The translations under genes were made by a program, and so were the position numbers. The notes beneath the pieces are model-generated. The model saw only the letters and a program-made list of their open reading frames with translations. It was not told the origin of the DNA and did not search any database. Shown piece by piece: positions 5,217 to 54,799 of a stretch of 64,000 nucleotides of DNA (position 1 is the first letter of the stretch; every line of letters begins with the position of its first letter). The stretch is from contig JAJPIE010000037.1 of assembly GCA_021324935.1 (NCBI GenBank), forward strand, positions 62,001-126,000, given 5' to 3'. Origin of the DNA: Acidobacteriota bacterium. Its GTDB lineage: Bacteria; Acidobacteriota; Terriglobia; Acidiferrales; UBA7541.

Positions 5217-6125
5217 TCAGCGGGTTGCCATCGCCGGCGTGAAAACTTGGTCGGCAAGATTTTCCGCGGCGGAAACCAGGTGATGGAGAAGCCCTGAATA
5301 AGCCGCTTCCGTGAACGGTCGCGCGGCCGGAAAGCGTGGGCACAGCGATTCCCAGATGTGTGGCAGGGAAGCAGCCTCGCTGGATTGAAGTTCATAGCCA
5401 TACCCCAGCCCGAGTTTCTGACAGACGAGATCGGCGGCATGCACCAGCAAGGTCGTGTCGCTGGGCGCCGGCTGTTTTTGCGGGTCGCAGTGATGCTCGA
5501 TCACGTCAGCGAGTTCCTCGGGCAGCCGCCACAGCTCGGAAAGGATTCGGCCACTTTCCGCGTGCGAGAAGCCCATGATGCTTTTTTCGATTTCCTCGAG
5601 CGGCGCGCGCTTTCGCTGCGCTTCCTCCAAGACGTCGCGAAAATCTTCGACGAAAAGAACGCCGTTCACCAACACTCCGATATCGTGCAGCAAACCGGCA
5701 AGGTAGATATCCTCCAGGGATTTTGCCCCGAATTCCTCCCCAAGGCCTTGCGCAACCACCGCGGTTCCCAGCGCATGACGCCAAAAAACTTCTTTGCCGA
5801 CATTGGTGTTCACGTTGGAAAACATCATCGGTAGGCTGCAGGAGAAGACAAGATCGCGGATGCGCCACAGTCCCAAGGCCAGCACGGCGTCTTTCACGCT
5901 GACAACGTCGCCTCTTTGGCGGAAAAGCGCGGAGTTTGCCAAGCGCAGGCATTGTGCCGCCAGGGATTTGTCGTACGAGATGTGGCGGATGATTTGGTCA
6001 AGATCGATTTTGCTGCTCTTCTGGCTGAGCGCATCGCACAACGTCGCAAGGACCGCGGGCATGGCCGGCAAGTTGCCCAGTTGCTTGATCCGCTGCGTCA
6101 GAATGTCGTAGGTCACCAGATTCAC
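5217..6125 (-). CDS. HDOD domain signalling protein
   Basis: This 302-aa soluble protein has one HDOD domain covering most of its length. It starts with GTG (MNLVTYDIL after conversion), preceded by AAGAGG at good spacing; the adjacent ATG is out of frame. The sequence shows ISYDKSLAAQCLRLANSALF, the HD-like AGLLHDIGVLVN, SHAESGRIL and IEHHCDP. These are the conserved stations of the family, which lacks a proven common catalytic activity and often acts in regulation or as a protein scaffold. It is clearly paralogous to the HDOD gene after cheR, sharing LANS, LLHD(I/L)GILVN, HAESG and GLGYGY. A candidate sigma-54 promoter lies about 85 bases upstream, which would tie it to the flagellar regulon. 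Confidence 0.88.
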   Translation of the reverse strand: MNLVTYDILTQRIKQLGNLPAMPAVLATLCDALSQKSSKIDLDQIIRHISYDKSLAAQCLRLANSALFRQRGDVVSVKDAVLALGLWRIRDLVFSCSLPMMFSNVNTNVGKEVFWRHALGTAVVAQGLGEEFGAKSLEDIYLAGLLHDIGVLVNGVLFVEDFRDVLEEAQRKRAPLEEIEKSIMGFSHAESGRILSELWRLPEELADVIEHHCDPQKQPAPSDTTLLVHAADLVCQKLGLGYGYELQSSEAASLPHIWESLCPRFPAARPFTEAAYSGLLHHLVSAAENLADQVFTPAMATR

Positions 6126-6488
6126 ATCCGCACCTCTTGGTTGGCTCCCGTTCGTTGGCCACGGATGAATATCTGGCTATTTCGCATTGGCATCGTCCCA
6201 AGGGAAATGAAGCACGCGTCCTGCCAGAAACCCGCGGGCATTTTCGGAGGGTTACGGAGGGAATGATGTTCCACACCAGAACATTCTTGCCTGTTCCGGG
6301 TCACTCATCCGGTCTCAGATGCGTGTGATCTCTGACTTTGCCGGGCGGCTAGCAAAGACCGGCGTGCGGCTTGTGATTTGAAAGGCTTGAACGGCTCGCA
6401 GAGGCGCGCTCTCCCCGCGTCCCGTCTCAACAATGGCCCATCTCGTGCACCATACTCGCCGGGTTTCGCGAAGCCACCGCGTCCGACT
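6126..6488. other. Divergent intergenic region between the HDOD and EAL-HDOD genes
   Basis: These 363 bases hold no convincing gene. The short ORFs listed there have no ribosome site or family likeness. Seen in it are a sigma-54-like site on the minus strand (6211-6227) and an inverted repeat ATGTTC-N7-GAACAT at 6266-6284. No clear promoter for the rightward EAL-HDOD gene could be picked out. Confidence 0.6.
6211..6227 (-). promoter_or_regulatory. Candidate sigma-54 promoter for the minus-strand HDOD gene
   Basis: Read on the minus strand, CTGGCAGGACGCGTGCT has GG and GC separated by ten bases, with CTGGCA at -24 and GTGCT at -12. The expected transcript would begin near 6200, about 75 bases before the GTG start. 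The -12 box is imperfect. Confidence 0.4.
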
Positions 6489-7730
6489 ATGACCGCTTCG
6501 GAAAGTTACAATCGCTTTCTCGCACGGCAGCCCATCCTGGCCCCTGATCGCAACCTCTTTGCTTACGAAATTCTTTCCCGCTATGGGCCGGAAAATTATT
6601 GCCGGCCTAAGCCCGGGTCGGCGGTTTCGGTCAACGCGATGGATGAACTGTTTCTCATGGGTATTCGCACCATGACCGATGGACTGCCTGCGTTCATGAA
6701 TTGTACGCGGGAATTTTTGCTACAAGACTTCCTGACGCTGATGCCGCGCGAGCTGGTGGTCGGCGAAATTCTGGAAACCGTGCCGCCCGACGAGGACGTC
6801 ATCAATGCCTGCCGCCGCATGAAGGAACTTGGCTACCGTCTGGCGCTCGACGACTACTGCGACTTGCCGGAAACGCAGCCGCTGCTGGACTTCGCTGATT
6901 TCGTGAAAGTGGATGTGCTGTTGATGAGCGAGGCGGACCAGCGGCAGCTTCTGGAACGTTGCCGCCGCCGCGGGATTCCCACCATCGCGGAAAAAGTGGA
7001 AACCGATCATCAATTTCAAAGGTGCCGGGAGCTGGGTTACGACTTCTTCCAGGGATATTTCTTTTGTCGGCCGCAAATCGTCGGCCGCCGCAGCGTGCCC
7101 GCCAACAAGGCCGTGTACCTGGAACTCTTGCAGGCGGTGAACGAGCCGGTTTTCAATCTCCACCGCATATCGATGATCTTCAAGCGCGATATTTCGCTCA
7201 GCTATCGCTTGCTGCGCTATCTGAATTCCGCAGCCTTTGCGTTTCGGGTGGAGATCCACTCCATTCCCCACGCGTTGAGTCTGCTGGGAGAGCGCGCGAT
7301 GCGCAAATGGATTTCGCTGGTCAGCGTTGCCGCGCTGGGTGACGAAGTGGCCGACAGCCTGCTGCGGCTTCCCTTGTTGCGCGCCATGTTCTGCGAACTG
7401 ATCGGCCAGAAAATCGGCATGCTCCGCGAGACCAACGAACTCTTCTTGCTGGGCTTGCTCTCCGTGATGGATGCGCTGCTCAACCTGCCCATGGCCGCCG
7501 TACTACAGGACATTAAAGTGGATGAGGAAATCGCCAAGGCCTTGCAGGGACATGAGAGCCGCTACCGGCCGATCTTCGAAGTGGTTCTCGACTACGAATC
7601 CGGCACCTGGGGCCAACTGGCCGAATCCTGCCGACGCATCGGCCTCCACGAAAATTTTCTCCCGGATCTGTATCTGCGATCCGTCAGTTGGGTAAGCGAG
7701 GTTCTTGCCGAAGTGCCGGTTTCGGCCTGA
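6489..7730 (+). CDS. EAL-HDOD (YuxH-type) signalling protein with degenerate EAL motif
   Basis: This cytoplasmic protein has 413 aa if started at ATG 6489 (MTASESYNRFLARQPIL); the track's TTG at 6378 adds 37 residues of unlike composition. The N-terminal half resembles an EAL phosphodiesterase domain of the YuxH family: FLARQPILAPDRNLFAYEILSRYG, then LALDDYCD, VKVDVLL and IAEKVE. The C-terminal half is HDOD: FKRDISLSYRLLRYLNSAAF and the MRKWISLVSV segment. The signature EAL/ELL position reads EIL and several acidic metal ligands are hard to place, so c-di-GMP hydrolysis is doubtful. Binding or protein-contact roles are more likely. It ends five bases from the convergent pcaC gene. Confidence 0.87.
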   Translation: MTASESYNRFLARQPILAPDRNLFAYEILSRYGPENYCRPKPGSAVSVNAMDELFLMGIRTMTDGLPAFMNCTREFLLQDFLTLMPRELVVGEILETVPPDEDVINACRRMKELGYRLALDDYCDLPETQPLLDFADFVKVDVLLMSEADQRQLLERCRRRGIPTIAEKVETDHQFQRCRELGYDFFQGYFFCRPQIVGRRSVPANKAVYLELLQAVNEPVFNLHRISMIFKRDISLSYRLLRYLNSAAFAFRVEIHSIPHALSLLGERAMRKWISLVSVAALGDEVADSLLRLPLLRAMFCELIGQKIGMLRETNELFLLGLLSVMDALLNLPMAAVLQDIKVDEEIAKALQGHESRYRPIFEVVLDYESGTWGQLAESCRRIGLHENFLPDLYLRSVSWVSEVLAEVPVSA

Positions 7731-25640: not shown

Positions 25641-26567
25641 ATGGCTGGAGAAGTCTTGAATGCGACGATGAGCGCGGCGGGCGGCCGCGATAAAGAGGAC
25701 ATCAACGACCCCGTCTATCTGCGGATCCGCGACCTCGTTTACCAGACATGCGGCATTTACCACTCGGAAGAAAAAATGTATCTGCTCACGGCCGCCTGCA
25801 AGCGGCGAATGGCCACCGGCGCGGTGAAGGCCACCAACGGCCGAGAATATCTCGATTTGCTGACCAACATCGCTTATAAAGAAGCCGAAACCCGCGCGCT
25901 GCTGAATGAAATTACCATCGGCGAAACCTGTTTGTTCCGCAGCATGCCGCAGCTCAATGCGCTGAAAAACGTGATCCTCCCCGAACTGGCGCAGGAGCGC
26001 TCGAAAATTGGCCTGAAAAAACTCAAAGTCTGGAGCGCGGGCTGCTCGACTGGCGAAGAACCCTACACACTGGCGATGTTCCTCCTGGAACAGAAGGAAT
26101 CTCTTCTAAAGGACTGGACGTTTGAAATCCAGGCTACCGACCTAAACGACCGCTCCATCGAGACCGCGCGTGCCGGCATCTATGGCGACTACGCCCTTCG
26201 CAACACCCCGGATGAGTACAAACGCAAATATTTCGTTCCCGCCGAGGGCGCAAAGCTCCGGGTTCGCGACGATGTGAAAGCCCGCATCACCTTCCAGCGC
26301 CTGAACCTCAACGACGATTCCCGCATGCTCTTCATGAAGGGCATGGACCTGATTTTCTGTTGCAATGTGCTCATTTACTTCGATATGGCTTCGAAAAAAC
26401 GCGTCGTGCAGCATTTCTTCTCCAGCCTCATGCCCAACGGCTGCTTCTTTCTGGGTCACGCGGAGTCGCTCTACCAGGTGAACGATCAATTCCGGCTGGT
26501 TCACTTGCCGGGAACTACCGTCTATCGCAAGCCGGGTCCGGAGCCGGCAAAGGCAGGAAAACCATGA
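25641..26567 (+). CDS. cheR: Chemotaxis protein methyltransferase CheR
   Basis: This 308-aa SAM-dependent methyltransferase adds methyl groups to receptor glutamates. The N-terminal helical part (YLRIRDLVYQTCGIYH) precedes the catalytic domain with NEITIGETCLFR, the SAM motif KVWSAGCSTGEEPYTLAM, IQATDLNDRSIETARAGIY and the late MDLIFCCNVLIYFD. No TPR extension is present. Its stop overlaps the start of the next HDOD gene (ATGA), so the two are probably translated together. Confidence 0.96.
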   Translation: MAGEVLNATMSAAGGRDKEDINDPVYLRIRDLVYQTCGIYHSEEKMYLLTAACKRRMATGAVKATNGREYLDLLTNIAYKEAETRALLNEITIGETCLFRSMPQLNALKNVILPELAQERSKIGLKKLKVWSAGCSTGEEPYTLAMFLLEQKESLLKDWTFEIQATDLNDRSIETARAGIYGDYALRNTPDEYKRKYFVPAEGAKLRVRDDVKARITFQRLNLNDDSRMLFMKGMDLIFCCNVLIYFDMASKKRVVQHFFSSLMPNGCFFLGHAESLYQVNDQFRLVHLPGTTVYRKPGPEPAKAGKP

Positions 26568-27487
26568 GCGGGTTGCGCGAGGGATTGCAAAAACGGGTCG
26601 AAAGGCTGCGCTCCTTGCCTTCTTCGCCCGCCGTACTCAATCCGCTCCTGGACCTGCTTCGCACCGATCCTGACCACATCGAGTTGAAAAAAGTCGTCGA
26701 GCTGGTTTCCTACGACAAAACCATCGCCGCCCAGTGCCTGCGAATCGCCAACTCTCCGCTCTACGGCCGGGCCCGCGCCACCGAATCGATCCAGGCCGCC
26801 GTGGTTGCGCTTGGCATCCAGCGCGTGGAAGACATTCTGCTCACTTGCTGCCTCCACCAGTTCAGCTCCGGCGAAAAGTGGGCCACCGAACCCCAGGTTT
26901 ACTGGAGACATTCGTTAGGCTGCGCTGCCGTCTGCCGGGAACTCGCGCTCCGCATCGACTTTCGCGAGCCGGACAAGGCCTATCTTGCCGGCCTCCTCCA
27001 CGATCTCGGAATTCTCGTGAATTCTCTCGCCTACACGGAGGAATACCGTGACGTGATTGCGCGCGCCCGCGAACGCGGCGTCCCTCTTGCCGAGCAGGAG
27101 ATGAGCGACCTCGGCTTCACGCACGCGGAAAGCGGCAGCATTCTCGGAAAAGCCTGGCAACTCCCCAGCGCAGTAATCGAGGTCATAGCTTTCCATCATG
27201 ACGTCGAGCAGGCTCCGGTGGATCGTCCTCTCGTCGCCTTGGTCCATATTGGAGATCTGTTGTGCCGGTATCGCGGCTTGGGCTACGGCTATGATGAATG
27301 GCGCAGCCTGGATCTGCTCCTTGATCCAGCCTGGCGGCAGCTAACGAAACACGTCCCACGTCTCGCGAGCATGGATCTCGCGCGCTTTACGATGGATTTG
27401 GACGCTTTTCTCCCCCAAGTGCAGCAGCTTGTATCGACCGTGTTTGGTTTCAAGCCGGAACATGCCCCCGCCTTAAATTTCCACTAA
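26564..27487 (+). CDS. HDOD domain protein coupled to cheR
   Basis: This 307-aa HDOD protein starts at ATG 26564 (MSGLREGLQKRVERL), overlapping the cheR stop; the track's longer version runs into cheR. It shows VSYDKTIAAQCLRIANSPLYG, YLAGLLHDLGILVNS, FTHAESGSILG and VIAFHHDVEQ. It is a close relative of the minus-strand HDOD gene at 5.2 kb, sharing GLGYGY and the order of motifs. HDOD proteins have been linked to motility and signalling control, but their biochemical action is mostly unknown. Tight coupling to cheR suggests a role in adaptation or in assembling the chemotaxis machinery. Confidence 0.9.
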   Translation: MSGLREGLQKRVERLRSLPSSPAVLNPLLDLLRTDPDHIELKKVVELVSYDKTIAAQCLRIANSPLYGRARATESIQAAVVALGIQRVEDILLTCCLHQFSSGEKWATEPQVYWRHSLGCAAVCRELALRIDFREPDKAYLAGLLHDLGILVNSLAYTEEYRDVIARARERGVPLAEQEMSDLGFTHAESGSILGKAWQLPSAVIEVIAFHHDVEQAPVDRPLVALVHIGDLLCRYRGLGYGYDEWRSLDLLLDPAWRQLTKHVPRLASMDLARFTMDLDAFLPQVQQLVSTVFGFKPEHAPALNFH

Positions 27488-27821
27488 AGTTTGCAGACAT
27501 CCCGCCGATATCCAAATTGACCGTGCAAAGGCGCTATCCAGCGTGTTTGCGGCCGTGGAACTGCGGCAAACGGCTCCTCCTGCTGGCGAGATAGGCAGGA
27601 AGTGCGTAGTACTTTTTGTTTTGATACAGCACCGTGTGCCCGTCTGGCGCATGGGGTGTGCTTTCCTCCTGTGTAACTCCTTTTTTTTCAATCCCGCCGG
27701 TAAATTCAGTTTGGCTATGAACTCGCAATTATCGGGTGTTGCGTACGAGTGGCAGAGTTTTCCCAGCGGAGCGTTGCATGCGCCGCTCGTGCAAGTGACA
27801 CAGAATAAGTTGGAGGAATCA
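27488..27821. other. Intergenic region before the sigma-54 activator gene
   Basis: These 334 bases have no convincing gene. The activator ORF stays open upstream, but its composition and the lack of a ribosome site argue against a longer protein. It holds a run of eight T at 27681-27688 and the sigma-54-like promoter at 27711-27727. It separates the che operon from the flagellar operon. Confidence 0.55.
27711..27727 (+). promoter_or_regulatory. Candidate sigma-54 promoter of the flagellar regulatory operon
   Basis: TTGGCTATGAACTCGCA has TTGGC at -24 and CTCGCA at -12 with GG-N10-GC spacing. The -12 box has one deviation from TTGCA. A start near 27738 would give an 84-base leader to the activator gene. 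It suggests autoregulation through sigma-54. Confidence 0.55.
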
Positions 27822-28988
27822 ATGGCAGCCGGCGCGGCGGTCAACTGGGCAGGAACCACGGGGCGATTCCTCGTGGCAAGTTCGGATCCCGAAGTGCGGC
27901 GGCGTGTGTTGGGTGCGCCGGAATTCCTTGGCCGGGAAGGCATGGAAGCAAGCGGCGGAGCGGCTGCGCTCGCAAAGCTGCGCGAGACCTCCTGTGATGG
28001 CGTGCTCCTCGACCGCAATCTGGCGGATCTCGATGCCGGCGAAGTGGCCGAGATGATCCAGCGCGACTTTCCGGAGGTTTCCGTTTCCTGGATCGAAGAC
28101 CAAGCCTGCGAACCGCTGCCGAATATTTCCACTCGCGTGCGAGTCCGCCGCGGCGATTGGCAGTCGGAACCGGACGGTGAATCCCTCACGACTTTGCCCG
28201 GAATGATCGGCGCAAGCGAAACGATGCGCGAGGTCTACCGGCTGGCGCGGCTGGTAGCGAGACGCGATACCACAGTGCTGATTACCGGCGAAACCGGCAC
28301 GGGCAAAGAGCTCGTTGCCGAAGCCGTCCACAAGCTCAGCCGGCGTGCGAAGCAGCCCTTCGTGGTGGTGAATTGCGCGGCGATTCCCGAGACCTTGCTC
28401 GAAGCCGAGCTATTCGGTCATGTGCGCGGGGCCTTCACTGGCGCGGTACAGTCGCGCCTGGGCAGGATTCACGCGGCGCAAGGCGGCACCCTTTTCCTCG
28501 ATGAAATTGGCGACCTTCCCCTGGGTATGCAGGCAAAACTTCTGCGTTTCCTGCAAAGCGGCGAAGTGCAGCGCCTGGGCAGCGCGGACATGCAGCGCGT
28601 GGACGTGCGCGTCATCTGCGCAACAAACGTCGATCTCGGTGCCCTTGTGGAAGCCAAACAGTTCCGCATGGATTTGTACTACCGCCTGGAAGTATTTCCC
28701 ATCGCATTGCCGCCGTTGCAGTCGCGATCCGGTGATCTTGCGCTGCTGGCCGAACATTTCTTGAATCTGCTGAATGAAGAAAGCAGTCTGCCCCCAAAGC
28801 GCCTGAGCGTCGCCGCGCTCGATCATCTGCTTCGGCGCAGTTGGCCGGGCAATGTGCGCGAACTTCAGCACGCCATCGAGCGCGCCTTCATTCTCAGCGG
28901 CGATGCCGAATGGTTGGAAGTGGAACATTTCCCACAGCCCGGAGCAGCGCTGGAATCTCGTGAAGCGCAACGCCGAAGACTGGCATAG
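27822..28988 (+). CDS. Sigma-54 activator, FlrA/FleQ-like, without a C-terminal DNA-binding domain
   Basis: This 388-aa AAA+ enhancer-binding-type protein starts at ATG 27822, after TTGGAGGAATCA. Residues about 15-115 form a degenerate receiver-like domain: FLVASSDPEVRRR lacks the usual acidic pair, though VLLDRNLADLD keeps an Asp. The sigma-54 domain has Walker A GETGTGKELVAEAV (about 156), the sigma-54 contact loop GAFTGA (about 203), Walker B GGTLFLDEIGDLP and RSWPGNVRELQHAIERAFIL. The protein ends about 40 residues after that with no Fis-type helix-turn-helix. Place and order (next to a kinase and an NtrC-type regulator) match the flagellar cascade FleQ-FleS-FleR. The missing HTH recalls FlgR of Helicobacter. 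Confidence 0.88.
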   Translation: MAAGAAVNWAGTTGRFLVASSDPEVRRRVLGAPEFLGREGMEASGGAAALAKLRETSCDGVLLDRNLADLDAGEVAEMIQRDFPEVSVSWIEDQACEPLPNISTRVRVRRGDWQSEPDGESLTTLPGMIGASETMREVYRLARLVARRDTTVLITGETGTGKELVAEAVHKLSRRAKQPFVVVNCAAIPETLLEAELFGHVRGAFTGAVQSRLGRIHAAQGGTLFLDEIGDLPLGMQAKLLRFLQSGEVQRLGSADMQRVDVRVICATNVDLGALVEAKQFRMDLYYRLEVFPIALPPLQSRSGDLALLAEHFLNLLNEESSLPPKRLSVAALDHLLRRSWPGNVRELQHAIERAFILSGDAEWLEVEHFPQPGAALESREAQRRRLA

Positions 28989-29018
28989 GCCGTTGCGAGC
29001 TGCCATCGAGGAGACACG

Positions 29019-30277
29019 ATGCCTTATCTGATCCTGAAATCCGGAAAACGGCCCCCCGCCCGCGAGCGCCGTGCCATGGAAAACGGTCTGGCGCAGGCGT
29101 TTCTGACATTCACTCAGGCCGCCGGCTCTCTTGAAAAGTCCTACACATTGCTTCAGAACGAAGTCGAGCGGCTGCGCGGCGAACTCGAAAAAGCCAACGC
29201 GGATCTCGAACATAGTCTGGAAGAAAACACTCGCGTTCGCGCCTATCTGACCCAGGTGCTCGAAAACCTCCCGTGCGGCGTGGTGGTCACCGCCGGCGAA
29301 AGCCAATCCGTGCAATTCATGAATCCGCTCGCCCGCCGTTTGCTGCAGATTCCCCCGGAATGGAATGAAAACGCCGATTCACGCGCCCCCGAGCTCCTCG
29401 CGCGTCTCAAAGCCGAAGCTTCAAGCTCTTCCTCGCCTTCCGAATTCGAATGGTGCGAGCGCGGAAGGGATGGCAATCGGTATATCGGCATTTCCCGCGC
29501 AGACTTGACCGGGCACGCCGCCGAAGAAGCCTCGGATCGCATCTGGATTGTCCGCGACGTCACCGAAGAGAAGCGGCTTGCGGCGGAGCGAGAAGCCGCC
29601 CGCGAATCGGTGGCCTTGGCGGAAATCGCCACACTGCTGGCTCATGAAATCCGCAATCCTCTCGGCAGCATGGAACTTTTCACCGGTTTGCTTGCTGAAG
29701 CGGTTTCTCATTCGCCCGAGGCTCGCCAATGGGCCACTCATCTGCAAGCTGGACTGCGCTCGCTCTCCGCCACGGTAAATAACGTTCTGCAGTTTCACGC
29801 CAAGGCCGGGGTGCAATTGACGGCTGTGGATCTCGGCCGGCTCCTCGGCGAGATCACCGAATTTCTTCAACCCGTTGCCAAGCAGCGCGGCCAGCAGATG
29901 CGCTTTGAAAATGGAATCGGCAAGGTCTTCACCCAGGCCGATGCCAACCGCCTGAAGCAGGTCTTCCTGAATCTCGCCATGAACGGCTTCCGTGCCATGC
30001 CTCCGGGCGGCACACTGCGCGTTCGCATGAAGTGGGCGCCGCAGTTCCCCGGCGGGCTGGCCGAAATCGAAGTTCACGACGAAGGCCGCGGCATTCCCGG
30101 CGAGCTCCAGGAAAAAATTTTCGACGCGGGATTCACCACCACCCCGGGCAGCCCCGGGCTGGGCCTCGCCGTCTGCAAACGGATTGTCGAGCAGCATGGC
30201 GGCGCGATCTCCGTGCAGAGCCGTCCGAAGGAAGGAACCACATTCGCGATCGTGTTGCCGGTGTCAGGAGCGAAAGC

Positions 30278-30281
<4 letters not shown>
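29019..30281 (+). CDS. PAS-containing cytoplasmic histidine kinase, FlrB/FleS-like
   Basis: This 420-aa kinase has no membrane segments. A coiled-coil (AGSLEKSYTLLQNEVERLRG, to about residue 75) precedes a PAS domain (VLENLPCGVVVTAGESQSV to IVRDVTEEKRL). The H-box is LLAHEIRNPLGSMELFTG. The ATPase boxes are RLKQVFLNLAMNGFRAM, EVHDEGRGIPGE and GSPGLGLAVCKRIVEQHGG. GAGGAGACACG precedes the ATG. The stop overlaps the following response regulator by four bases. The order matches the flagellar FlrB-FlrC/FleS-FleR pairs, so it probably phosphorylates that regulator at a checkpoint of flagellar assembly. The signal is unknown. Confidence 0.9.
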
Positions 30282-49114: not shown

Positions 49115-50092
49115 ATGAAGAAGATACTTTCTCAGGACGAAATCGACGCGCTGTTTGACGCGGCCAAGAGCAGCCAGCGCTCGATTTCCGAACGCTCCGT
49201 GAAGCCCTGTGACCTCCGCAAGCTCGGCGCGCTCAGCGCGGATCAGGTCCGCGTCATTACCACGCTGCATGAATCCTTTGCGCGGCGTCTCGGGGGCTCC
49301 CTCGGGGCTTACCTGCGCGTCGGCTTCGAGATGAATCTCGTCTCCGTCGAGCAAATTCTCTACTCCGAATTTCTCAGCCGCTTGCCCGAATTGACCTACC
49401 TGGCTTCGCTGCAGGTGATGCCCATCGACGCGCGCGCCACCATGCAAGCCGATCTCTCTCTGGTCTTCCCGATCGTTGACCTGGTCCTTGGCGGCTCCGG
49501 TGCCGATCCTATCGATCCACGTGACCTCACCGAAATCGAGGAACAGATCTTTGAAACCGTCGTCCGCTTGATGGCTCGCGACCTGCAAACCACCTGGGCT
49601 CCGGTCCTCCCGCTGGACATCAACTTCGATCAGCGTCAGCAGCACACCCAGGTGCAAGGCTTGATGTTGCCCACCGAAAAAGTCATGTCGCTTACCTTTG
49701 AAATCCGCCTGCCGGATTCCCGCGGCACGCTCAACCTCGCCTTCCCCGCCGTCATTTCTAACGCCCTGCTGCGCAAGCTCTCCGTGCAATGGTCCTACGC
49801 CGAGCGCAGCCCTTCCAAAGAAACGCAGGAGCAACTAAAAGACCGGCTGCTCGAAAGCCGCTTCGCGGTAAATCTCAGCCTGCCGCCAAGCCCGCTCACC
49901 ATCCGCGAACTGGTCGAGCTCGAGCCTGGCCGCGTGGTAATCCTCCCCAAGAACGCCCAAGACTCCATCGATTTCAACGTCGCGGGCAAGCCGATGTTTC
50001 GTGCCTATCCCATCCGGCAGGGAACCCGGCGAGGCGCCCGCATTGAGCGGCGCAGGAGTCTGCGCGGCAACGCCGCAACGGAGCAACCATGA
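49115..50092 (+). CDS. fliM: Flagellar motor switch protein FliM
   Basis: This 325-aa C-ring protein. The N-terminal LSQDEIDALFDAAK is the CheY-P binding peptide (consensus LSQxEIDALL). The CheC-like middle domain includes FARRLGGSLGAYLRVGFEM and PIVDLVLGGSG. The C-terminal SpoA domain is LTIRELVELEPGRVVILPKNAQDSIDFNVAGKPMFRAYPI. It lies eight bases after fliA instead of next to fliN. Its stop overlaps the start of the long FliN-like gene. Confidence 0.96.
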   Translation: MKKILSQDEIDALFDAAKSSQRSISERSVKPCDLRKLGALSADQVRVITTLHESFARRLGGSLGAYLRVGFEMNLVSVEQILYSEFLSRLPELTYLASLQVMPIDARATMQADLSLVFPIVDLVLGGSGADPIDPRDLTEIEEQIFETVVRLMARDLQTTWAPVLPLDINFDQRQQHTQVQGLMLPTEKVMSLTFEIRLPDSRGTLNLAFPAVISNALLRKLSVQWSYAERSPSKETQEQLKDRLLESRFAVNLSLPPSPLTIRELVELEPGRVVILPKNAQDSIDFNVAGKPMFRAYPIRQGTRRGARIERRRSLRGNAATEQP

Positions 50093-50946
50093 GCAATACG
50101 CCATTCGCGGAAAACATTTCAGCCTTCGTAACAGTTTGGAAGGACGCCTTTCTCCGTGTCCTCGAATCGCTCGGCGCCGCCGGCGTATCCGCCGAAAACG
50201 TCGATGGCACGGCTCTCCAACCCACCGGCGAATCGCAGGTCGGGATTCTCACGGTCAAGTTTTCAGGCGGCGGCTGCCTGAAGGGCGAAATGCTTTGGAC
50301 CTGCGAAAAGCCCGTGGCTCTGCAATGCGCGCAGTTGCTAATGTCCGAAGATCTGAATCCCGAAGCTGAATTCAGCGCCACGCACACCGACGGCTATCTT
50401 GAATTCATCCGCCAGGTTGCTGGCGAGGCCGCCGTCGGCTGGAAACTACAGCGTGGCGAGCCCACCGAAATCGTGTACCAGGCTGAAACGGGCTCGAAAT
50501 TTGAAACGCACTCTTCGGCTGCCTTCCGGCTTTCCAGCGATAAGTGCAAGTCGCTGACGTTTCGGATTGACCTGGATGCATCTCTTGCCGAGTCGCTTTT
50601 GGCCAAACGCGAACGGGAGTCTCCCGAAACTGTTACAACCGAGATTGCCGAAGCGGGCGGCGCGGCCAATCTGGCACTCCCCTCCAATCTGGACCTGATC
50701 CTCGACGTGCAACTTGATGCCACCATTCGCTTCGGCGAAAGGGAAATGCTCTTGCAGGACGTTTTTGGGTTGATGCCCGGCTCCGTTGTGGAACTCAACC
50801 AGTTGGTTAGTGAGCCCGCTGATCTTCTGGTGGCGGGGCGCCTCGTGGCCAAAGGCGAAGTTGTTGTTGTGGACGGGAACTTCGGCCTCCGCGTCACAGA
50901 AGTCGTCAGCCGCAACCAGCGGGCGGCTGTGCTCGATGCCGCTTGA
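50089..50946 (+). CDS. fliN: Long FliN/FliY-like switch protein with a CheC-like N-terminal region
   Basis: This 285-aa protein ends in a SpoA/FliN domain: LDLILDVQLDATIRFGEREMLLQDVFGLMPGSVVELN, then LVAKGEVVVVDGNFGLRVTEVV. Its first 190 residues contain a region that resembles CheC/CheX folds, with LKGEMLWTCEKPVALQCAQLLM and YLEFIRQVAGEAAVGW, but the catalytic Glu-x2-Asn of CheC phosphatases reads EFIR. This is the layout of Bacillus FliY, without clear phosphatase residues. It overlaps fliM by four bases and is followed by the MshEN gene after ten bases. The CheC likeness is my reading and needs profile support. Confidence 0.8.
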   Translation: MSNTPFAENISAFVTVWKDAFLRVLESLGAAGVSAENVDGTALQPTGESQVGILTVKFSGGGCLKGEMLWTCEKPVALQCAQLLMSEDLNPEAEFSATHTDGYLEFIRQVAGEAAVGWKLQRGEPTEIVYQAETGSKFETHSSAAFRLSSDKCKSLTFRIDLDASLAESLLAKRERESPETVTTEIAEAGGAANLALPSNLDLILDVQLDATIRFGEREMLLQDVFGLMPGSVVELNQLVSEPADLLVAGRLVAKGEVVVVDGNFGLRVTEVVSRNQRAAVLDAA

Positions 50947-50956
50947 GGAATTGGGA

Positions 50957-51946
50957 ATGAACGAGGGACACGTGATCGAATTTGCCGCAGCAAGCGAGCG
51001 GGAGAAATTTCAGCGCGCCGTGGGGCGCCTGCTCGAGCGCTGGACCGTACGTTGCGCCGCCCCCGGCTGCCGCGGCGGCAATCCCTCCAAATTCTCACTG
51101 CTTGCGCGATTCTCCGGCGTGCACTACAACAATCGCTGGTACCACCAGAGCGATTGCCTCCGCGCCGCGCTCACCTCACGCCTCAGCCAGATGCTGCAGA
51201 ACTTTGTCGAGAGCCGCGAGCGCGTGCATCGCTTGCCGTTCGGCCTGCTCCTCGTCAATCGTGGGGTCATTTCCCCGGAGGATCTGAAGCGCGCTTTGCG
51301 CATGCAGCGAGAGGCGGGTTATGGCAAGTTGAGTCACTGGCTTCAGCAAATCGTCCCCCTCGATGAGCACGAAGTTACCGCCGCGCTTGGCCAACAGTGG
51401 GGCTGCCCGGTTTTCCGGCTCACCCCGCAAAACATGATTTCCGGCCGGCAGAATCCCATTCCTTTTCCTGTCCTGGCCGCTGCCAAAGCCGTTCCCGTTC
51501 ACGCTTCCCACACCGGCAAGCAAATGCATATCGCGTTTTCCGAGCGTGTCGATCACACACTGCTCTATTCCGTCGAGGAAATGCTCGCCTGCCGCACCAT
51601 CGCCTGTGTCTCCCCCGACTCGATGGTCCGCGAAGCGCTCGAGCGCCTACGCCGCGAAGATGCCGGCAACGAAATTACCTTCGATACCGTCCGTGACCCC
51701 AATGAAATGGCCGCCACCATTTGCAGCTATGCCGTCCAGATGGACGCCCGCCGCATCAAGGCGGAGCGCGCCGGTGCTTACATCTGGGTCGCGTTCTTCC
51801 GCAAGGAAGCGCGCCGCGAACTCCTATTCCGCCTCCCCGGTGCGCGCTCGAACGAAATCGACCTCGGGCGTGAACGCTGTAAAGAGTTTCCCGGGATTGC
51901 CGATAACGGAAAGGATGGCGTCTCCAGCGCCGCACGGTACGCATGA
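50957..51946 (+). CDS. MshEN (GspE N-terminal) domain protein in the flagellar switch operon
   Basis: This 329-aa soluble protein has ATG 50957 with GAGGAATTGGG ahead. A possible metal site lies at CAAPGC...YHQSDC (about 31-60). Two MshEN repeats follow: FGLLLVNRGVISPEDLKRAL and LSHWLQQIVPLDEHEVTAAL (about 92-150), then the alpha/beta part typical of GspE-N (GCPVFRL, AKAVPVHASHTGKQMHIAFSERVD, VREALERLRRE). No ATPase domain is present. The Arg of the c-di-GMP-binding RLG motif is replaced in both repeats (PFG, GKL), so nucleotide binding is uncertain. Its stop overlaps the start of the HDOD gene. Function unknown; a regulatory role at the motor switch is inferred from context. Confidence 0.78.
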   Translation: MNEGHVIEFAAASEREKFQRAVGRLLERWTVRCAAPGCRGGNPSKFSLLARFSGVHYNNRWYHQSDCLRAALTSRLSQMLQNFVESRERVHRLPFGLLLVNRGVISPEDLKRALRMQREAGYGKLSHWLQQIVPLDEHEVTAALGQQWGCPVFRLTPQNMISGRQNPIPFPVLAAAKAVPVHASHTGKQMHIAFSERVDHTLLYSVEEMLACRTIACVSPDSMVREALERLRREDAGNEITFDTVRDPNEMAATICSYAVQMDARRIKAERAGAYIWVAFFRKEARRELLFRLPGARSNEIDLGRERCKEFPGIADNGKDGVSSAARYA

Positions 51947-53010
51947 ATCTGCCGCGGAAAAACGTGGTAGCAACGCCGACATCCATTGACCCTTTCGGCA
52001 CCCAGGTGGAGCGCCGGAAAAATCGCTTGATGGGCCTGCTCAACAAGGGGCTGCCCACGCTTCCGGCTTACCTGTTGGATTTGAACACTCTGCTCCGTTC
52101 GCCCACGGTCGATCTAAAAAAAGTCGGCAAAGTGATTCGCACGGACCCCAGCCTTACTGCCCAGGTGCTTCGCCTTTGCAATTCCGCGCTCTTTGGCCTT
52201 CGCCGCCGCGTCCTCAGCATCGAGCAAGCGGCCGTCCTTCTCGGCACCGAGCGCCTGCGCACGCTCGTCCTCACCTGCTCGGTGATGCAGTTCGCCGGGA
52301 AAAACGTTCCGGTCAACGCGCTGCTAGGCTTCTGGCAGCATAGTTTTCTTTCCGCGTTGCTCAGCGAGCGCATCGCTCGCCTCGTTGACTATCCCGAAAA
52401 AGAACAGGCTTATCTCGGTGGGCTCCTCCACGACATTGGCGAACTTCCCCTGTGGATCGTACTCATGGAGGAGCAAGCCAAAAATCGCCCGCTGCCGCCG
52501 CCCAACTGGTGCGACAACCTGAAAGTCGAACGCGAATACTTCGGCATGGACCACGGCAAGGTCGGCCGCTGGATGGCCGTCGCCTGGAATTTCATGCCTT
52601 CTTTTCTCGACGTCTTCGAACACCATCACGATCCGGAAAACGCGCAACACGACCCATACCTCGTAGGCATCGTTTCCGCAGCGGACCAGTTCTTGCAAGC
52701 CTTGCCTCCGCCGGAGCAAGCGACTCCGGATGCAGCTGCAGGCCCTTCGCCTTCCGTCGTGCAGCCGCCACCCCCCGCTCCCCAGCCGCCTTTGCCGTCC
52801 GTCGAAGACCCGTCCTTTTTGTTGCAGTGTTTTCCGCGGCTGGCCGATGAAGAGCGCGGCGGCATTCTCGAAATGCTGCAAACAGAATACCTGCATGTCC
52901 TGCCGCTGGTGGAACTCAGCATGGCGGCGATCGCCCCGGAATCCACAAGCGGTACAACTTCAGTACAGGAGCAAAAACGTGAGCAAGTTACGAGTACTTA
53001 TCGTGGATGA
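51943..53010 (+). CDS. HDOD domain protein in the flagellar switch operon
   Basis: This 355-aa protein has its ATG overlapping the MshEN gene stop. HDOD domain at about residues 25-250: LPTLPAYLLDLNTLL, IRTDPSLTAQVLRLCNSALFGLRRRVLSIEQAAVLLG, YLGGLLHDIGELPL, FGMDHGKVGRWMA and FEHHHDPENA. A Pro-rich linker (VVQPPPPAPQPPLPSVEDP) separates a short C-terminal helical tail. It is more distant from the other two HDOD proteins. cheY starts 32 bases inside its 3' end, a strong overlap suggesting coupled expression. Role unknown. Confidence 0.88.
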   Translation: MNLPRKNVVATPTSIDPFGTQVERRKNRLMGLLNKGLPTLPAYLLDLNTLLRSPTVDLKKVGKVIRTDPSLTAQVLRLCNSALFGLRRRVLSIEQAAVLLGTERLRTLVLTCSVMQFAGKNVPVNALLGFWQHSFLSALLSERIARLVDYPEKEQAYLGGLLHDIGELPLWIVLMEEQAKNRPLPPPNWCDNLKVEREYFGMDHGKVGRWMAVAWNFMPSFLDVFEHHHDPENAQHDPYLVGIVSAADQFLQALPPPEQATPDAAAGPSPSVVQPPPPAPQPPLPSVEDPSFLLQCFPRLADEERGGILEMLQTEYLHVLPLVELSMAAIAPESTSGTTSVQEQKREQVTSTYRG

Positions 53011-53365
53011 TTCGTCGGTGATGCGGAAAATTGTCGAACGATCCTTGCGGCAAGCCGGGCTCGATCTGGGCGAAGTGCTCGAAGCCAGCAATGGTGCCGA
53101 GGCCCTCGCGGAAGTCAACAAAGGAAAGTTCGATCTGATCCTCAGCGACATCAATATGCCCGCGATGGACGGCCTCGAATTTCTCCGCGGCCTCGCCGGC
53201 GTCGAATCCGCGAAGGGTGTTCCCGTCGTGATGATTACCACCGAAGGCAGCGAAGCGCGCGTCGTCGAAGCACTTTCCGTTGGTGCCAAGGGTTATATCC
53301 GTAAGCCTTTCACGCCCGAACAGGTCAAGGAACGCGTCGCTCCGCTCCTCGGAGGTGGCCAGTGA
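52979..53365 (+). CDS. cheY: CheY-type response regulator
   Basis: This 128-aa single receiver domain starts with GTG 52979, after CAGGAG at good distance; the track's longer ORF lies in the wrong frame of the HDOD gene. LRVLIVDDSSVMRKIVERSL carries the acidic pair, the phospho-Asp is in LILSDINMPAMDGLEFL, then Thr in VMITTEGSEARV and Lys in GYIRKPFTPEQV. It is probably the regulator phosphorylated by CheA that binds FliM. It lies far from cheA but directly beside the switch genes and CheX. Confidence 0.92.
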   Translation: MSKLRVLIVDDSSVMRKIVERSLRQAGLDLGEVLEASNGAEALAEVNKGKFDLILSDINMPAMDGLEFLRGLAGVESAKGVPVVMITTEGSEARVVEALSVGAKGYIRKPFTPEQVKERVAPLLGGGQ

Positions 53366-53856
53366 GATCCACCCTTGGGCAGCCCATGCCAACCAACTCC
53401 CAGCTCGATCCTCACTGGAAGGGCATTCTGGAATGTGCCGCCATCGAAGTCTTCGCCATGATGGCCAATTCGGAAATCACACCGATGCCCGAGCAGCCCG
53501 AGCAGCAGCAGGGCGAACAGACCGCGATGGTCGGCCTCGCCGGAGCGCTCTGCGGCATGATCACCATCCGCTGCAGCAAGGAATCCGCCGTGAAACTTGC
53601 CACGCGCATGCTCGGTGAGGACGCCAAATCCAATCCTTCGATGGTTGGCGATGCGCTCGGTGAGCTTTGCAACATGGTTGCCGGAAATTTCAAGTCGAAA
53701 ATCACCAGCCTGGCCGATCATTGTATGCTCAGTGTTCCCACGGTCATCTGGGGCGAGGACTACGTCATGCAAATGGTCAAGCCGAACTCCGGTTTTCAGT
53801 TCGCGCTTGACTGCGAAGGCAGACCCGTGTGGTTCTCGCTTGTCATCCACGATTGA
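53362..53856 (+). CDS. cheX: CheX-like CheY-P phosphatase
   Basis: This 164-aa protein has a GTG start overlapping the cheY stop (GTGA), with GGAGG six bases upstream; ATG 53386 is an alternative. GMITIRCSKESAVKLATRMLGED and GDALGELCNMVAGNFKSKI match the CheC/CheX family, including the catalytic Glu-x2-Asn in GELCN. It would remove phosphate from CheY-P and so end the signal. No CheZ or CheD is seen in the window. The pairing with cheY by overlap supports this. Confidence 0.87.
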   Translation: MRSTLGQPMPTNSQLDPHWKGILECAAIEVFAMMANSEITPMPEQPEQQQGEQTAMVGLAGALCGMITIRCSKESAVKLATRMLGEDAKSNPSMVGDALGELCNMVAGNFKSKITSLADHCMLSVPTVIWGEDYVMQMVKPNSGFQFALDCEGRPVWFSLVIHD

Positions 53857-54067: not shown

Positions 54068-54799
54068 ATGGACAGCGGTTTCTACTCAGCTTTCACGGGA
54101 TTTGCCACGCGGCTCGATGCGCTCGAAGTTGTCGCCAACAATCTCGCCAACACCAACACTCCCGGTTACAAAGCTTCGCGAGCCTTTTATCGCTCGATGC
54201 CTGCGTGGTTGCAGCAGTCGCTCTCGACGCCCCTGAACCAGGCGGTGAATCAATTTGGTGTTCTTGGCGGCGCGCAACTCGATCTCACTGTCAGCAATCT
54301 GGAGAAGACCGGGAATGCCACTGACGTTGCTTTGCAGGGCCCAGGATTCTTCAACATCCAGTCCAAAGCCGGCCTTCGCTTCACGCGCAATGGGAACTTC
54401 CAGTTGAACACAAAGCGCCAGTTGATCACCTCTCAAGGTGATCTCGTCCTCGGCGACAACGGTCCGATCCAGCTCCCATCCGGCGAGCTCGCCATCAGCC
54501 AGGATGGCACGGTTTCTGTCGACGGCGGCCTCGTCGCGAAACTCAAGGTCACGGATTTTTCTTCCCCCGCCGACCTTACTCCCGAGGGCAACACCTACTT
54601 TTCCGCACAGACGAAAGGGAAGGCCGTTGCGGAACCCAACGTCGTGCAGGGCGCGCTGGAAACTTCCAACGCCGATCCCATCAAGGCCACGGTTTCCCTG
54701 ATCGAGTTGCAGCGTACGGCGCAACTCATGGAGAAAGCCCTTTCCATTTTTCATAACGAATTCAACCGCACGGCGGCACAGGATCTGCCCCGGGTGTAA
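54068..54799 (+). CDS. flgF: Flagellar basal-body rod protein FlgF
   Basis: This 243-aa rod protein. N-terminal rod motif: RLDALEVVANNLANTNTPGYKASRAFY. Middle: TDVALQGPGFFNIQSKAGLRFTRNGNFQLN. The C-terminus is VQGALETSNADPIKATVSLIELQRTAQLMEKAL. It precedes flgG as in most genomes. The length (243) is close to E. coli FlgF. It begins the flgF-G-A-H-I-J operon behind its own sigma-54 promoter. Confidence 0.93.
   Translation: MDSGFYSAFTGFATRLDALEVVANNLANTNTPGYKASRAFYRSMPAWLQQSLSTPLNQAVNQFGVLGGAQLDLTVSNLEKTGNATDVALQGPGFFNIQSKAGLRFTRNGNFQLNTKRQLITSQGDLVLGDNGPIQLPSGELAISQDGTVSVDGGLVAKLKVTDFSSPADLTPEGNTYFSAQTKGKAVAEPNVVQGALETSNADPIKATVSLIELQRTAQLMEKALSIFHNEFNRTAAQDLPRV

Follow-up and report, generated by a model that had tools for sequence, protein, structure and literature searches.

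Organization of the Locus

The window is a 64,000-nucleotide stretch of acidobacterial DNA whose flagellar cluster contains five tightly packed genes between fliM and flgF (Table 1). These genes encode a FliY/FliN protein, a 329-aa MshEN protein, an HDOD protein, and the chemotaxis proteins CheY and CheX. fliM and fliY overlap by 4 bases, a 10-base gap separates fliY from the MshEN gene, the MshEN and HDOD genes overlap by 4 bases, HDOD and cheY by 32 bases, and cheY and cheX by 4 bases; an alternative internal ATG at 53386 is possible for cheX. The original prediction gave these coordinates, overlaps, and gap exactly to the base, and the identities it assigned to FliM, the C-terminal domain of FliN, HDOD, the receiver, and CheX are clear by Pfam. 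FliM keeps its N-terminal CheY-binding peptide, LSQDEIDALF, and flgF is followed by flgG, flgA, flgH, and flgI. A Pfam search for PilZ domains returned no match in any protein of the block.

Table 1. Genes of the fliM–flgF block in the window
Gene	Coordinates	Strand	Product and supporting evidence
fliM	49115..50092	+	Motor switch protein; Pfam FliM E 1.5e-35, FliMN_C E 4e-11
fliY/fliN	50089..50946	+	C-terminal FliN domain, FliMN_C E 1.9e-19
MshEN gene	50957..51946	+	329 aa
HDOD gene	51943..53010	+	355 aa; Pfam HDOD E 1.9e-50, 171 bits against a cut-off of 22.9 bits
cheY	52979..53365	+	GTG start; Pfam Response_reg E 1.2e-30; NCBIfam CheY E 3e-27
cheX	53362..53856	+	CheY-P phosphatase; Pfam CheX E 7.7e-22
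flgF	54068..54799	+	Downstream boundary of the conserved block, from gene order in relatives

Architecture and Fold of the MshEN Protein

The 329-aa protein contains an N-terminal Cys/His cluster (C33, C38, H63, C67), an MshEN domain at residues of about 92–234, a C-terminal domain of alpha-beta-beta-beta topology with an invariant W277 (about 239–297), and a disordered tail (299–329). The cluster and the conserved C-terminal domain were absent from the original prediction. Across 129 copies, cysteine occupies the four places of the cluster in 129, 125, 128, and 129 copies, and the window histidine is the sole exception at the third place. This cysteine pattern suggests a Cys4-type zinc motif, which would be Cys3His in the window. 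The cluster, the Gly, Leu, and Gln residues of the MshEN motifs, and a C-terminal W-x-R are invariant or nearly so. Residues 236–298 align collinearly and weakly with the N2 domain of PilB (pairwise E 0.005, probability 7%, with five shuffles giving E 0.25–0.67 in the same profile comparison), which is suggestive only of a PilB N2 origin for the C-terminal domain.

The identification of this protein as an ATPase-free MshEN, made in the original prediction, holds on sequence matches, on fold, and on the behavior of its relatives. A PDB sequence search matches PilF, PilB, and MshE, and Pfam finds no ATPase domain with Walker motifs. In profile searches, the window copy itself has no match to Pfam MshEN (PF05157) and scores 29 bits against the NCBIfam c-di-GMP motif NF053729, below its 38-bit cut-off, whereas all relatives scanned pass NF053729 with 38.4–52.7 bits and four of six pass the PF05157 cut-off.

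An AlphaFold model of the window protein, built on an alignment of 28 relatives, has a mean pLDDT of 84.3 and a pTM of 0.78. Its best Foldseek match is 5htl, the c-di-GMP-bound MshE (E 4.6e-7, TM 0.80 on the target), and all 19 PDB fold matches at E <= 0.001 are domains of MshE, PilF, PilB-N, or XpsE-N. Modeling a member from a different acidobacterial class gave a pLDDT of 87.2 and a match to 5htl at E 3.4e-10. The two models, which represent two classes, match structures of MshE or PilF with c-di-GMP bound.

Distribution and Gene Order

The MshEN gene is a flagellar gene found in several classes of Acidobacteriota. With a true orthologue defined as a best E below 2e-11 and PilB-sized matches left out, 34 of 151 Terriglobia genomes carry it. 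FliM is encoded in all 34, whereas the orthologue occurs in none of the 78 Terriglobia genomes lacking FliM (Fisher p = 1e-13). It is also absent with a different, higher-scoring FliM type (families f4 and f6). Four genomes (G012, G083, G120, and G139; loci L091–L094) have the same flagellar cluster without the MshEN gene, and the gene is therefore not essential for having a flagellum.

The gene lies directly after fliN/fliY in all 30 sampled Terriglobia loci, with the order flhB-flhA-whiG-fliM-fliN/Y-MshEN-[hdod]-[cheY-cheX]-flgF-flgG-flgA-flgH-flgI. A scan of 85,462 species genomes with a Terriglobia-specific pattern confirmed 103 relatives, of which 80 were kept, including those of Granulicella aggregans, Edaphobacter lichenicola, Terracidiphilus gabretensis, and Acidipila rosea. 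The gene follows fliN/fliY directly in 77 of these 80 loci; two of the other three start at or near a contig end, and in the third (L129) cheY lies upstream and the locus extends past the end of the contig. Its start lies at most 30 nt from the fliN/fliY stop, or overlaps it, in 64 of the 77, with start sites chosen mechanically. cheY lies downstream of the MshEN gene in 45 of the 80 loci.

Searching the phylum with a profile recovered full-length relatives from other acidobacterial classes. Of the 18 such loci that include both flanks, 17 place the MshEN gene between fliN/fliY and flgF. An alternative order in these classes is fliN-hdod-DUF2802-like-MshEN-flgF, and a small membrane-anchored DUF2802/DUF6115-like protein is encoded just before the MshEN gene there (L070:8298-8729, L073:9541-10017, L074:2543-2971, and L077:7499-7954).

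In four genomes (G052, G115, G119, and G135) fliM lies elsewhere and the fliN–MshEN pair is intact in the cluster; loci L098, L099, and L100 (from G119, G135, and G052) show fliM away from the main flagellar cluster and the pair inside it. This persistence of the pair points to FliN as the likely partner of the MshEN protein.

The conserved unit is thus fliN/fliY–MshEN, often with cheY-cheX downstream. These counts and the co-occurrence with FliM bear out, across the phylum, the predicted placement of a flagellum-dedicated MshEN gene beside the switch genes. The five genes as a fixed module are not supported, and we reject them as the conserved unit, since HDOD is facultative: it occurs in 10 of 30 sampled Terriglobia loci, 3–4 of about 80 named loci, and 6 of 18 loci in other classes. 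A neighborhood comparison across Acidobacteriota accordingly recovers the fliN/fliY–MshEN order and not the full MshEN-HDOD-CheY-CheX set.

Apart from acidobacterial contigs, the species-genome scan with its Terriglobia-specific pattern returned only one MAG whose name is just 'bacterium' and locus L176 (JANXWZ010000238.1). The L176 contig carries an acidobacterial flagellar cluster in a MAG labelled Rhodanobacteraceae, and its FlhA is 82% identical to acidobacterial FlhA; we attribute this apparent member to a likely binning error. A plasmid search gave distant partial matches only, one of them annotated GspE/PulE. One related Cys4-MshEN protein with canonical motifs (L194/L196; L196:8249-9100) lies in a non-flagellar cluster resembling sec/tatD genes, so the architecture is not exclusively flagellar.

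In a tree of the MshEN region (139 columns), the flagellar copies do not all group together to the exclusion of PilB, and the tree by itself does not establish a single origin of these copies. The case for a single origin therefore rests on shared architecture and position.

State of the c-di-GMP Motifs

MshEN domains carry two tandem 24-residue c-di-GMP motifs, and a relaxed form of the motif permits proline at the first place (Wang et al. 2016, PMC5013675). As the original prediction stated, the window copy has lost the RLG arginines: motif 1 has P94 and motif 2 has K124 in their place. The suggestion in the prediction that the ligand may therefore differ calls for some refinement. Motif 1 fits the relaxed motif with no misfits, and its proline is found at the first place in 109 of 109 Terriglobia copies, 84 of which, the window copy included, fit the relaxed pattern. 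The distinctive feature of the window copy is motif 2, which departs from the relaxed motif at four positions (3, 7, 10, and 11) and no longer has the glycine of RLG.

Across Terriglobia, motif 2 shows drift at positions 7, 10, and 11, and the window copy alone among them has four misfits. Even in this class, the Gln and Leu of the motifs do not vary. In copies from other classes, the first place of motif 1 is Arg in 10 of 20 and Lys in 7 of 20, and that of motif 2 is Arg in 16 of 20. These motif states across classes make it probable that the ancestral protein served as a c-di-GMP receptor, and the window copy is, by its motif residues, the most eroded of the copies compared. Ligand binding has probably weakened in the window lineage, and binding of c-di-GMP by the window copy itself is doubtful. 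The site states RLG, KLG, and PLG, together with the disrupted motif 2 in the window copy, form a natural series for studying the loss of ligand binding. The genome has 13 GGDEF and 22 PilZ matches and therefore encodes c-di-GMP signaling.

Neighboring FliY, HDOD, CheY, and CheX Proteins

CheX retains its catalytic ExxN motif as ELCN in the window, and ExxN is kept in 54 of 55 homologues. The N-terminal region of the window FliY is weakly CheX/CheC-like (CheX E 0.066), with EFIR replacing ExxN, and in an alignment of 91 long FliY proteins, 62 have Arg where the catalytic Asn would stand. Since ExxN is kept in CheX and the Asn is lost in most Terriglobia FliY proteins, CheX is probably the working CheY-P phosphatase here. 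CheY is a single-domain receiver with the DD, D, T, and K residues, and it ends at 128 aa (...LLGGGQ) with no Arg-rich C-terminal extension.

The HDOD gene is linked to the locus in two different gene orders. Four of the seven HDOD matches in the genome lie in the window, at 5220-6176 (-), 6336-7727 (+), 26216-27484 (+), and 51943-53010 (+), and the protein encoded at 6336-7727 is an EAL-HDOD protein. At 26216-30278, an HDOD gene, a sigma-54 activator gene, and a histidine kinase gene follow one another right after chemotaxis genes and are possibly a regulatory set for the flagellar island. Genome G052 also contains a second fliM-fliY-cheY-cheX locus, which is preceded by an HDOD gene and lacks an MshEN gene.

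Proposed Function and Alternative Explanations

The MshEN gene product would be a soluble, flagellum-dedicated accessory protein of Acidobacteriota, derived from the N-terminal part of a PilB/GspE-type protein to which a zinc motif was joined. It would be made together with FliN/FliY and most likely dock on the switch or C-ring, where it would adjust motor or switch behavior. The ancestral form would report c-di-GMP through its tandem RLG motifs, while CheY and CheX alongside it would set and erase the ordinary chemotaxis signal and the HDOD protein would serve as an optional second regulator. In the window lineage the first half-site appears kept and the second eroded, so that in this copy c-di-GMP binding may be weak or absent and the role of the protein mainly that of an adaptor. 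Action of the MshEN and HDOD proteins on CheY, CheX, or the C-ring is likewise a prediction.

We give an even chance to the reading that this MshEN-derived protein is dedicated to the flagellum and acts as a receptor for c-di-GMP or an adaptor of the switch. The flagellar linkage, the close coupling to fliN/fliY, the architecture, the fold, and the motif states are established here, and the ligand, docking site, and output are predictions. In its favor are the co-occurrence with FliM (34/34 vs 0/78), the adjacency to fliN/fliY and the persistence of that pair where fliM lies elsewhere, the invariant residues, the fold matches of both models, the motifs of the canonical relatives, the c-di-GMP signaling genes of the genome, and the precedent of the HDOD protein SadB; the window score under the NF053729 cut-off, the misfits of motif 2, the four clusters without the gene, the MshEN-region tree, and L194/L196 count against it. 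The narrower proposal, that c-di-GMP is bound at or close to the C-ring by a zinc-motif MshEN switch accessory made with FliN, which links this biofilm messenger to motor output, is somewhat less than an even bet.

The main rival, which we regard as possible though on the unlikely side, holds that the protein works without a ligand, as an assembly or docking factor of the C-ring or export gate; its MshEN fold would then serve as a protein–protein platform that retains only a vestige of c-di-GMP binding. Fixed coupling to fliN and a location among structural genes would suit such a factor, as would the drift of motif 2 in Terriglobia and the loss there of the first Arg from every copy, and the solved PilB-N/PilZ complex among the fold matches of the window model (7lko) provides a structural precedent. 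However, both motifs are retained in the other classes, whose relatives score above the cut-off of the c-di-GMP model, the Gln and Leu stay invariant even in Terriglobia, and four flagellar clusters do without the gene. An improbable alternative is a regulator of flagellar gene expression acting with the WhiG-type sigma factor upstream, whose zinc motif would bind a partner or nucleic acid. Although the zinc-type cluster is conserved in 129 copies with few exceptions and whiG is close upstream, the gene is linked to fliN and not to whiG, the fold matches are N-domains of pilus and secretion proteins only, and domain scans of the window protein and its relatives found no DNA-binding domain. That the five genes are an accidental run of neighbors with no special relation is very improbable; HDOD, CheY, and CheX are common genes, and the full set is not conserved, with HDOD mostly absent, but the MshEN gene is retained at the same place phylum-wide, its co-occurrence with FliM is far from random, and HDOD recurs in more than one arrangement. 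For the fliN–MshEN pair, accident is already disfavored; the HDOD gene may still be an accidental neighbor.

Significance and Comparison with Known Systems

The original prediction knew of no described system with this gene set, and our search of the open-access literature found no paper describing an MshEN protein in a flagellar cluster. The gene has been retained in several classes of Acidobacteriota, a phylum in which motility has received little study, and it represents the reuse of the ATPase-free N-terminal domain of a pilus or secretion motor in the gene cluster of a rotary motor. It suggests a dedicated link between c-di-GMP and swimming in acidobacteria, with the putative site of the window copy partly eroded, and poses the testable question of how c-di-GMP reaches the motor where the flagellar cluster has no PilZ protein. 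If the coupling of c-di-GMP to the motor by this protein is real, it would be a third, structurally unrelated answer beside PilZ brakes and Cle proteins. MshEN associated with CheA or CheX domains and c-di-GMP receptors of other folds in flagellar operons are already known.

Among these, FlgZ is a c-di-GMP receptor encoded in a flagellar operon (PMC3913639). FlgZ/YcgR and the window protein share the position of a putative c-di-GMP receptor inside a flagellar operon of conserved gene order; however, the window protein has an unrelated fold with no PilZ domain and is encoded beside fliN, whereas FlgZ/YcgR is encoded beside flgMN. The Cle proteins of Caulobacter are CheY-like c-di-GMP effectors with an Arg-rich C-terminal extension (PMC5677366), and the proposed logic of c-di-GMP acting at the flagellar switch in parallel with CheY is similar. 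The window CheY lacks that tail and is therefore not a Cle protein, and the MshEN protein is not a receiver. SadB, an HDOD protein with control over flagella, has a Kd of 0.23 uM for c-di-GMP (PMC6543031) and is a precedent for linking an HDOD domain to both. Unlike the window HDOD protein, SadB has a YbaK-like domain, and it acts on flagellar synthesis upstream of FleQ.

The closest likeness in fold is to the MshEN domain of MshE/PilB/PilF-type ATPases (PMC5013675; PDB 5htl). The resemblance extends to the motifs, since window motif 1 falls within the relaxed motif and relatives from other classes have RLG or KLG in both. The window protein differs in having no ATPase domain, a Cys4-type zinc motif, a gene in a flagellar cluster, and four misfits in motif 2. 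Wang et al. 2016 (PMC5013675) also noted MshEN in association with CheA, CheX, REC, and HD-GYP domains, which likewise places MshEN with partners of the chemotaxis type; there the partners are associated domains, whereas here they are separate genes of a flagellar cluster.
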